This document shows, piece by piece, positions 6,022 through 8,140 of a stretch of 28,700 bases of DNA (positions are counted from its first letter, which is position 1; every line of letters begins with the position of its first letter). The notes beneath the pieces were generated by a model. The model was not told where the DNA came from, searched no databases, and saw only the letters and a list, made by a program, of their open reading frames with translations. The DNA is from a virus. A program made the translations under genes and the position numbers. The stretch is from IMG/VR virus record IMGVR_UViG_3300009431_000652, positions 1 to 28,700 of that record, one strand, 5' to 3'.

Positions 6022-6228
6022 TTAATATATAGTAACTTCGTCCCAACTTTCATTTTTGACGAATGTCTTACCATTCCCCTCCGCATCTACTGCGTAGCGG
6101 AAATCCTTATTGCAGGTAGGGCAATAGTAATCCATCGACTCTTTATAGCGCAGAAACCCACCAGCAATAGCTCCTAAACTCTTTCCGCCGTAGTAACAGT
6201 AAGGGCAATGCAAATCCACCAAACACAT
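6022..6228 (-). CDS. Small zinc-ribbon protein
   Basis: 68 residues with two Cys pairs, C8-P-Y-C11 and C36-P-T-C39, spaced as a zinc ribbon, and an acidic C-terminus. The start is ATG 6228, one nt after the TAA of the preceding membrane protein, with AGGTAAG before it; a longer frame to 6453 is only the shadow of the upstream gene's Gly-rich repeat. It is the last gene of the coupled TolQ/TolR-like cassette. No specific function recognised. Confidence 0.72.
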   Translation of the reverse strand: MCLVDLHCPYCYYGGKSLGAIAGGFLRYKESMDYYCPTCNKDFRYAVDAEGNGKTFVKNESWDEVTIY

Positions 6229-6229
6229 C

Positions 6230-6937
6230 TTACCTAGGCACTGCTGCTGGCATCGCACGTTGCGGATTCCCTCCATGTTTAGGTGGATAGTTCGGCGGGG
6301 GAAGAACATAGAATACGAAGTCACCCATGTTCTGGTTGTCTCCTCCGTGGCCTCTTCCTTTCCCCTCCTTGCCATCTCCCTTCTTGCCTTTGCCCTCGCC
6401 AGGTTCACCTTCACCGGCTTCGCCGTCTCCCTTCTCGCCCGCTGGGCCTCCAAACTTACCCTGCTTGAACTCGCCTATTACAGGCAAGCCTCGCATACAC
6501 ATCTGCTTTACCTTGCAAGCTGCACGATGTAACGGCCGTGAATAAGGACGTTGGTAGAGTTTAGGGTTCGTATCATCCCCTGTGTATCCAAGAACCCCCA
6601 ACGTCCGATCCTGCCAAGTTACACGTTTAGCGTCATCATCATGTGGCAACTTCGTGACAAGAAAGAAAATAGCGCCTTCATCATCACCGGTTTTTGAAGG
6701 CTCATCTACAACAACCCAATGCACCAAAAACTTCCGAGGAGGATCAGAGGGCGTTGCCCATCCCAAATAAGACCCAACGGAATACCAGACAGCTAAACCA
6801 AAATAAACTGTACCCAACATGATCGGGGCCTTAACCCACCACCAACCACGTGAACCAATAATGGCCCACAACAAAAGGCAGGTGCAAATGAGAAAGGAGA
6901 TAGGTAGTGCCATTACAGATAGCGCTATATCATTCAT
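6230..6937 (-). CDS. Membrane protein with a collagen-like Gly/Glu/Lys-rich segment
   Basis: 235 residues. Two hydrophobic helices at about 5-28 and 36-60 are followed by a soluble domain (65-160) with four Cys near 141-147 and upstream. Residues about 163-200 are a Gly-rich repeat of GEKGDGEAGEGEPGEGKGKKGD type, partly in Gly-x-x register, then FVFYVLPPPNYPP and a short tail. No family recognised. It starts at ATG 6937, overlapping the TolR-like gene by 4 nt (ATGA), so it is probably made in step with it. The extramembrane repeat could reach across the periplasm or be a flexible linker; topology is not decided by sequence alone. Confidence 0.7.
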   Translation of the reverse strand: MNDIALSVMALPISFLICTCLLLWAIIGSRGWWWVKAPIMLGTVYFGLAVWYSVGSYLGWATPSDPPRKFLVHWVVVDEPSKTGDDEGAIFFLVTKLPHDDDAKRVTWQDRTLGVLGYTGDDTNPKLYQRPYSRPLHRAACKVKQMCMRGLPVIGEFKQGKFGGPAGEKGDGEAGEGEPGEGKGKKGDGKEGKGRGHGGDNQNMGDFVFYVLPPPNYPPKHGGNPQRAMPAAVPR

Positions 6938-7629
6938 GGTGTTCCCTCCTCTCCAGTTGGTCCGCCAGGGTACATTCCGTCATGGTACTCCTCACCTTCC
7001 ATACCTCCCATTTCTCCCGGCCCCAACTTGTTCTTCACTATCTGCTTAGGAAGCTCATTGATGTCAATGATCTCGCCCTTCTTGTTAACCGTGAACCGAA
7101 AGACTGTCACCTCATCGGCCGTTTTGTGTAACGTCACCGTCTTAGCAGCACACAAAGTCAAACTCGGATTGAGTTTCTCGACAAGAATGTTCACTTCTGT
7201 CGGCCCCTGCGCACGCTTTGAGTACATGTGAACATTGACAACATACTCACCAGGAATCATTCCACGAATCGTGACAATCTCCCTGTTCTCTTTATACTCG
7301 AACTTCTGTCCATTCACGATAACAACATCATTCTGATGCCCCAAATCATCACGATCCAAGTGCATCAAGTTCTCTTCCTTGTCCCGGAAGTAAACAATGC
7401 CACCACCTGGGTCTTCAACATAGGTGTCAACATCATCCATCTGTGTCTTTTCCCACGTCACCGTGATAATCATATCCGCTTTTGCTTCGACATTCTTCTC
7501 GTGCTTGACCTTCGGATTGATGAACATAAAGGTAAGCATGAAGAAAACGGCAAAGGCCAACAGGGTGTTGAAGAGCAAATCAAGAAAAGCGGTATTCGAG
7601 TGATATCTCCTGAATCTAAGTTTGCTCAT
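6934..7629 (-). CDS. TolR/ExbD-like single-pass membrane subunit with beta-rich C-terminal domain
   Basis: 231 residues. An N-terminal basic stretch is followed by one membrane helix (about 15-38) that carries Asp17 in FLDLLFN, the position of the proton-carrying Asp in TolR and ExbD. The outer part is not a standard TolR periplasmic domain: residues 50-95 read WEKTQMDDVDTYVEDPGGG, then a strand and LDRDDLG, like the DUF2135-type beta-sandwich, followed by IRGMIPGEYVVNVHMY. The C-terminus is Gly/Glu-rich. It overlaps the TolQ-like gene by 14 nt and is preceded by a G-rich ribosome site. With the partner it should make a proton-driven stator. Family call comes from helix, Asp and neighbour rather than full similarity. 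Confidence 0.65.
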   Translation of the reverse strand: MSKLRFRRYHSNTAFLDLLFNTLLAFAVFFMLTFMFINPKVKHEKNVEAKADMIITVTWEKTQMDDVDTYVEDPGGGIVYFRDKEENLMHLDRDDLGHQNDVVIVNGQKFEYKENREIVTIRGMIPGEYVVNVHMYSKRAQGPTEVNILVEKLNPSLTLCAAKTVTLHKTADEVTVFRFTVNKKGEIIDINELPKQIVKNKLGPGEMGGMEGEEYHDGMYPGGPTGEEGTP

Positions 7630-8140
7630 TCACCCCCCTGAACTTGTCGATTCCCTGAGTGAGATTGAAACACTGCAATTTCAACAACACACTACCGATC
7701 AAACCGGTAAGCGTGGTGTAAAGAGCAGTAGCCATCCCCCCACTCATCTTCGACAACACCGCCTGGAGCGTTGCTGGGTTCGATGGGTCAATCTCGCTGA
7801 AACCGCCCATCAACATGATAATAAAACCGGAAACGGTACCAATCATACCAACTGTTAACAAGACATCACTAACAAACCACCCAGCGCTCTCTGTATACTC
7901 TAGTTGATCTAGTGTGTCTTCTTCGACCCCTCCTAGACTAAGTACCTTGCTAGTCTTCCAGCTTGCTATGCCACAGCAAACGCTCATGGCGGCAAAGACG
8001 GCCATAATCACGAAACTGAGCTTCGTCATGTCTTGCGCCCATACGTCGTGGAATATGCCAAAATAGAACGAGATAGTCGCTCCCAGGGCCATCAAAACGG
8101 CCATTAGCCACCATCTAAGAAATAGCCTGTGCCTTATCAT
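7616..8140 (-). CDS. MotA/TolQ/ExbB-family proton channel subunit
   Basis: 174 residues, short for the family. Four hydrophobic helices at about 9-30, 41-60, 90-113 and 134-157. The third contains VGMIGTVSGF (97-106), the LGLxGTVxG signature of TolQ/ExbB/MotA, and the fourth MATALYTTLTGLIGS (136-150), matching the ALxTTaxGL signature. The loop between (GGFSEIDPSNPATL) fits the usual cytoplasmic link. Together with the next gene it should form a channel that uses the proton gradient. AAAGG precedes ATG 8140. It is first in a four-gene coupled cassette ending at 6022. Family membership is good; its purpose in a phage is unknown. Confidence 0.75.
   Translation of the reverse strand: MIRHRLFLRWWLMAVLMALGATISFYFGIFHDVWAQDMTKLSFVIMAVFAAMSVCCGIASWKTSKVLSLGGVEEDTLDQLEYTESAGWFVSDVLLTVGMIGTVSGFIIMLMGGFSEIDPSNPATLQAVLSKMSGGMATALYTTLTGLIGSVLLKLQCFNLTQGIDKFRGVNEQT

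Follow-up and report, generated by a model that had tools for sequence, protein, structure and literature searches.

A three-gene membrane module of phages and Proteobacteria as a candidate proton-driven motor of the MotA/TolQ/ExbB superfamily

The DNA analysed here (the window) is a complete virus record of 28,700 bases, on the minus strand of which lie three consecutive genes that we call Q, R, and G, in that order (Table 1). The open reading frames proposed for this locus in an earlier note, made from the sequence alone, were verified in position and strand. Q and R overlap by 14 nt and R and G by 4 nt, and a purine-rich, Shine-Dalgarno-like stretch precedes each of the three. An ATG at position 6228, directly behind the G stop codon, opens a 68-aa frame with CPYC and CPTC motifs, a small zinc-ribbon ORF that a naive reading would start at a TTG inside G; judged from the sequence, 6228 is probably the true start. 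The earlier note counted this ORF as the fourth member of the set, a membership that we reject, because none of the other loci contains a relative and the module consists of three genes.

Table 1. Features of the Q-R-G locus and its immediate surroundings in the window.
Feature	Coordinates	Strand	Basis
Q, MotA/TolQ/ExbB-family channel subunit, 174 aa	7616..8140	-	Pfam PF01618, PDB profiles, hhalign
Q Thr102, equivalent to TolQ Thr145, in GxxGTVxG	7835..7837	-	TolQ alignment; T in 70/71
Q Thr143, equivalent to TolQ Thr178, in GMxTALYTTLxG	7712..7714	-	TolQ alignment; T in 70/71
R, TolR/ExbD-like partner, 231 aa	6934..7629	-	tblastn, AlphaFold2, hhalign to YfaP
R predicted transmembrane helix, residues 11-37	7519..7599	-	AlphaFold2
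R Asp17, same register as ExbD membrane Asp	7579..7581	-	73/73 rows; weak helix alignment
R predicted periplasmic beta-sandwich, residues 53-191	7057..7473	-	AlphaFold2, invariant residues
G, third subunit, 235 aa	6230..6937	-	homologues downstream of R, AlphaFold2, loop charges
Gly-rich low-complexity insert of G, lineage-specific	6329..6460	-	clade distribution; low pLDDT
Small zinc-ribbon ORF, 68 aa from ATG 6228, outside the module	6022..6228	-	relatives sought in other loci
Hsp20 gene, directly downstream	5939-5448	-	

The phage carries T4-like replication genes (a gp32-like SSB, a DnaB helicase, a weak UvsY and helicases), and the trio is situated amid the SSB, DnaB, UvsY-like and polymerase genes. 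A 175-aa ORF in the same replication region (12713-12186, minus strand) matches the T4 major capsid Gp23 model over positions 18-74 alone, at 26.2 bits, and looks from its sequence like a fragment or look-alike. Upstream of Q lies a gene for a ThaI-type restriction endonuclease (PF15514, E 3e-24; 8991-8200) and before that a DNA methyltransferase-like ORF (10057-9254), both on the minus strand; in the nearest relative phage, L015, a ThaI-type gene likewise lies just upstream of Q. Downstream of G the zinc-ribbon ORF is followed by Hsp20, a family that is among the commonest module neighbours in viral loci (5 of the 132 neighbour proteins scanned). In Rhizobium phages the module adjoins gyrase, late sigma factor and recombination nuclease genes, and Hsp20, ClpS, Hsp70 and SbmA/BacA each neighbour it in a few phages, which hints at stress or envelope upkeep and at nothing beyond that. 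The SbmA/BacA-like transporter family was matched by four neighbour proteins of viral loci, located upstream of Q and, as a guess from gene length, probably belonging to L029, L031, L034, and L066. Module neighbours vary between phages and provide no functional anchor.

These surroundings bear on the question of lysis. As a holin- or spanin-like device, the module would, as infection ends, either collapse the membrane potential or disrupt the outer membrane, a role to which membrane proteins with periplasmic domains would be suited and with which the spanin family, matched by 2 of the 132 viral neighbour proteins, would agree. No endolysin, holin or spanin is found among the 25 listed of the 45 families matched in the window. 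Instead, both the window and the Rhizobium phages examined have replication, sigma-factor and recombination genes as neighbours of the module, and the trio itself also resides in bacterial chromosomes. We therefore give a lysis device hardly any credence, and lysis timing, one of the functions the earlier note had raised, is disfavoured because the module sits among replication genes.

A search of viral contigs and phage records with the single Q sequence returned no relatives because Q alone is too divergent, and R proved to be the useful probe. By tblastn, R finds relatives in Rhizobium phages (5e-31), Sinorhizobium phages and more distant phages. The order Q-R-G is present in RHph_I1_9, RHph_I1_18, RHph_N3_13, RL2RES, 16-3, NV1.1.1, and RHph_TM3_3_14B, and in all seven the annotation calls the three genes hypothetical or leaves them without a name. 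When viral sequences were scanned with R, 139 relatives came up, from which 80 loci were kept, and a scan of cellular genomes with a four-row alignment of R gave 160 relatives, from which a further 80 loci were kept. Q was present in 80/80 of the viral and 80/80 of the cellular loci, and G in 77/80 and 78/80, respectively. Over loci picked by R alone, Q thus accompanies R in 160/160 and G does so in 155/160. The order is Q-R-G with few exceptions, and the recurrence of Q and G across R-fetched loci excludes chance. The earlier note had proposed searching viral data for the gene order, and that order indeed recurs. Start and stop codons of module genes overlap in most viral loci, and the genes are occasionally separated: in NV1.1.1 and RHph_TM3_3_14B homing endonuclease genes interrupt the Q-R junction, and in L015 an unrelated ORF sits in the R-G interval. 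This ORF of L015 (5657-6434) has a CxxxCxxC motif and, by eye, resembles radical-SAM proteins. The homing-endonuclease-like inserts between Q and R occupy 3264-4001 in L009 and 3279-4037 in L013, two 16-3-like phages.

In cells the trio is a stand-alone operon. Its neighbours there are unrelated housekeeping, metabolic and transport genes, and a comparison of 29 diverse cellular loci shows no conserved fourth neighbour beside Q, R, and G; the remaining recurrent families there correspond to reading frames antisense to one of the three genes. Of 289 genomes sampled from the class to which Azospirillum belongs, 37 carry R, as do 14 of 299 sampled across the phylum of a Thiobacillus genome; Azospirillum brasilense has two copies of the trio. 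The module is therefore a set of three genes common to many phages and many Proteobacteria, and not, as the earlier note had it, a cassette special to phages. Distances for Q, R, and G are correlated (rho 0.79 for Q versus R), as would be expected of co-inherited genes, a correlation that does not by itself show a complex.

Q belongs, on sequence evidence, to the MotA/TolQ/ExbB family. The window protein scores 30.3 bits against Pfam MotA_ExbB (PF01618; cut-off 22.9, E 3.9e-7), and of the other phage Q proteins two lie above the cut-off (26.8 and 26.2) and one just under it (22.6). A Q profile of 71 rows matches solved structures of MotA (2e-9) and TolQ (6e-5), as well as PomA and ZorA, and hhalign aligns Q with Escherichia coli TolQ across both pore helices (E 1.5e-5). 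Both pore-helix motifs are present (GxxGTVxG and GxxxALxxTxxG) with a threonine in each, and the equivalence of these residues to TolQ Thr145 and Thr178 was read off the numbering of the hhalign alignment; at Thr102 the exception is an alanine in Innesvirus-type Q. Most viral and cellular Q proteins have four hydrophobic helices, and the window protein scores three by hydropathy. Q is predicted to have four transmembrane helices with both termini in the cytoplasm, and its loop charges agree with an N-in orientation, with negative periplasmic loops and with a cytoplasmic loop before the pore helices. Phage Q proteins lack a large cytoplasmic domain: Q measures 174 aa in the window, where the C-terminus ends about 19 residues past the last helix, and the median is 156 aa in viral versus 250 aa in cellular loci.

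R follows the design of TolR and ExbD in its membrane part and departs from it in the periplasm. The AlphaFold2 model (pLDDT 87) has a single N-terminal helix and an 11-strand beta-sandwich, and the placement of the latter in the periplasm, like its fold, is predicted. As in ExbD and TolR, the helix carries an Asp near its cytoplasmic end; the charge asymmetry around this helix is weak. Asp17 is invariant in the 73 R rows along with W59, D66, D68, D94, D95, G97, and E117; such an acidic set is suggestive of a bound metal, and the sandwich may be a metal-binding domain. By hhalign the sandwich aligns with YfaP DUF2135 (E 2.4e-4, probability 43), and Pfam DUF2135 gives no match at E<=1, so the periplasmic domain appears DUF2135-like at a distance, as the earlier note had suspected. 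That note had also assigned Q and R to their families from motifs. Profiles bear this out for Q, whose MotA_ExbB match lies above the cut-off, and not for R, which matches no Pfam ExbD/TolR profile, aligns with ExbD over the Asp helix only (in register, weak and not significant at E 0.027) and has no significant alignment to TolR. The broader description of R as a helix-plus-Asp partner with a different periplasmic domain nevertheless stands on the invariant Asp17, the model and the YfaP alignment.

Structure searches place the R sandwich no more precisely. Foldseek matches to leucocidins and spike proteins are artefacts (TM about 0.14), and a match to DUF4425 (probability 0.91) says only that the domain is a beta-sandwich, leaving R without a confident fold match. 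No OmpA-like peptidoglycan-binding domain was matched in R by Pfam, and the model is a beta-sandwich. Phage proteins of the phrog_1735 family contain an internal domain with which the sandwich likewise aligns; like YfaP, the phrog_1735 proteins examined differ from R in lacking its Asp helix and an adjacent channel partner. Proteins of this family from phiCbK, Pokken, KpS8, and Slickus01 were considered as a fused form of the module and rejected, for they occur without Q or G, their partner is phrog_2018 and the homology is limited to the beta domain. The phrog_1735 protein (about 670 aa, with an internal R-like beta domain) and phrog_2018 form a conserved pair in L006, L007, L008, and L010, carried by phiCbK, an N4-like phage, a Vequintavirinae phage and an Alishewanella phage.

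The R domain invites a reading in which the fold is reused in a sensor or scaffold and not in a motor, its beta-sandwich reading calcium or another ligand in the periplasm. The invariant acidic cluster would serve such a role, and the related domain of the 676-aa phrog_1735 proteins occurs in another gene context. A mere scaffold, however, would not need the membrane Asp and both pore threonines that are kept here, and we judge this reading improbable.

G is modelled as a transmembrane hairpin (residues 2-28 and 33-57) followed by a small alpha/beta domain (69-158; AlphaFold2 pLDDT 78.5), and it also has a Gly/Lys/Glu-rich insert and a conserved FYxLP-type tail. The loop between the two helices has a net positive charge in 97% of 66 rows, suggesting that the alpha/beta domain lies in the periplasm, where we predict it to be. 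Foldseek gave no fold match for G, and no family scored above its curated cut-off. The two-helix description given in the earlier note survives in the predicted hairpin, whereas its collagen label does not: window G is without any run of five Gly-X-Y triplets, and Gly-rich tails are confined to the window clade (the window, L015-L018, and L020).

Comparison with known systems places Q-R-G in the MotA/TolQ/ExbB superfamily and outside Tol, Ton, Mot, and Zorya, because the defining periplasmic-side feature of each fails despite the common proton path. First, Tol-Pal shares with the module the pore-helix motifs and threonines of Q, the membrane Asp of R and the arrangement of three adjacent membrane genes, but R lacks the TolR periplasmic domain, Q is predicted to have four helices and G is a helix hairpin in place of the single-helix TolA; no TolA, TolB or Pal gene is conserved beside the module among the 29 diverse cellular loci. 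Second, ExbB-ExbD-TonB shares the pore logic and an Asp helix in register with that of R, and differs in that the periplasmic domain of R is a beta-sandwich and no TonB-like gene is conserved alongside. Third, a MotA is the best solved-structure match of Q and has four helices as predicted for Q, but, in contrast to MotA-MotB and PomA-PomB, R has no OmpA-like peptidoglycan domain, the cytoplasmic loop of Q is small and there is an extra subunit, G. Finally, Q weakly matches the pore part of ZorA models, and the module lacks the long ZorA cytoplasmic tail, the ZorB peptidoglycan domain and ZorC/D/E.

Resemblance to TolQ and ZorA raises the possibility of a decoy, in which Q or R would poison host Tol, Ton or Zorya complexes by inserting into them. 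The Q core is indeed like that of ZorA and TolQ, yet these matches are confined to the pore helices, PADLOC gives no ZorB match for R, the full three-gene set comes with its own R and G, and no defence genes were found among the neighbours of the cellular copies. The stand-alone cellular copies argue against the anti-Zorya and Tol-interference roles raised in the earlier note, for which we found no positive evidence, and we regard a decoy as highly improbable.

The nearest described grouping, as far as the available text of its source goes, is a heterogeneous class termed generic ion transporters (GIT), non-flagellar MotA/Exb-like pairs with unusual domains (PMC12505986). In that text, domains such as DUF3450 and DUF2341 are added to the A subunits (PMC12505986), whereas here a DUF2135-like domain appears to be on the B subunit, a third gene is present and the carriers include phages. 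On phage-encoded ExbB our literature search turned up one report, in which ExbB is counted among the auxiliary genes that Lentisphaerae phages carry (PMC11361711); the available portion of that report mentions no partner resembling R or G. A paper on a 16-3 relative leaves the trio genes unmentioned. The view in the earlier note that the set is undescribed agrees with the literature searched, in which we found no description of the trio and which left most subscription papers and preprints outside its scope.

We consider it likely that the three proteins assemble in the inner membrane as a single complex of the MotA/TolQ/ExbB superfamily, a proton-driven Q5R2 motor in which G acts as coupler. 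By comparison with superfamily members whose structures are solved, five Q subunits would surround two R helices, giving a 5:2 stoichiometry. Protons would pass by way of Q Thr102 and Thr143 to R Asp17, upon which the R dimer would turn or shift. We read the path in this way because the three residues (70/71, 70/71, and 73/73 rows, respectively) match TolQ T145 and T178 and TolR D23. In the TolAQR structure the essential TolR Asp23 is close to TolQ Thr145 and Thr178 (PMC12215075), and the matching of residues that lie together there supports the reading of Q and R as a channel through which protons would flow. Movement of the R dimer would displace its apparently metal-binding beta-sandwich domains in the periplasm, and the periplasmic alpha/beta domain of G would couple that movement to a target or anchor it. 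G would thereby hold the place of TolA in Tol and of TonB in Ton, and its part as a coupler is proposed on that footing.

The main rival to a motor is a proton leak that excludes superinfection, an open or triggerable channel that would lower the membrane potential and so stop DNA entry by other phages or weaken energy-dependent defences. The complete set of pore residues, the short phage Q without a large cytoplasmic domain and the placement of the module amid early/middle-type replication genes would all be in keeping with it. A plain leak, however, has no need of the constrained periplasmic domain of R or of a whole constrained G, and Proteobacteria keep the trio as a stand-alone chromosomal operon; we think a leak unlikely. 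Under the motor reading, the trio would be a self-contained envelope system of Proteobacteria that phages also carry. What it does for a phage can be suggested only tentatively: the likeliest role, which we nevertheless hold at well below even odds, would be proton-powered envelope work in the infected cell from the early/middle phase, in maintenance or in closing the cell to other phages.

A single branch of the R tree (SH-aLRT 95) divides the viral from the cellular rows, and the viral group nearest to the cellular rows is the temperate 16-3 group. The tree is unrooted and so does not show the direction of transfer. A cellular origin of the trio is the simpler reading because cells keep it as a stand-alone operon, and we propose that phages have carried it for a long time.

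To our knowledge, few kinds of proton-driven 5:2 machine exist, namely flagellar stators, Ton, Tol, gliding motors and Zorya, and we know of no motor of this kind that has the periplasmic part of the trio. We put at about even the chances that Q-R-G is an ion-driven 5:2 motor of a new class, possessing its own third subunit and a DUF2135-like periplasmic head, that powers an envelope process of many Proteobacteria and has been taken over by unrelated phages for work on the envelope of the cells they infect. Isolated carriers include the Rhizobium and Sinorhizobium phages 16-3, RL38J1, P10VF and the RHph series, as well as culturable Azospirillum, which makes deletion tests feasible. If true, the trio would add a further 5:2 kind, set apart by its periplasmic head and by a third gene, to the machines of Proteobacteria and of unrelated phages; it would mean that membrane energy is put to a new use and that phages have a new route by which to act on the host envelope.
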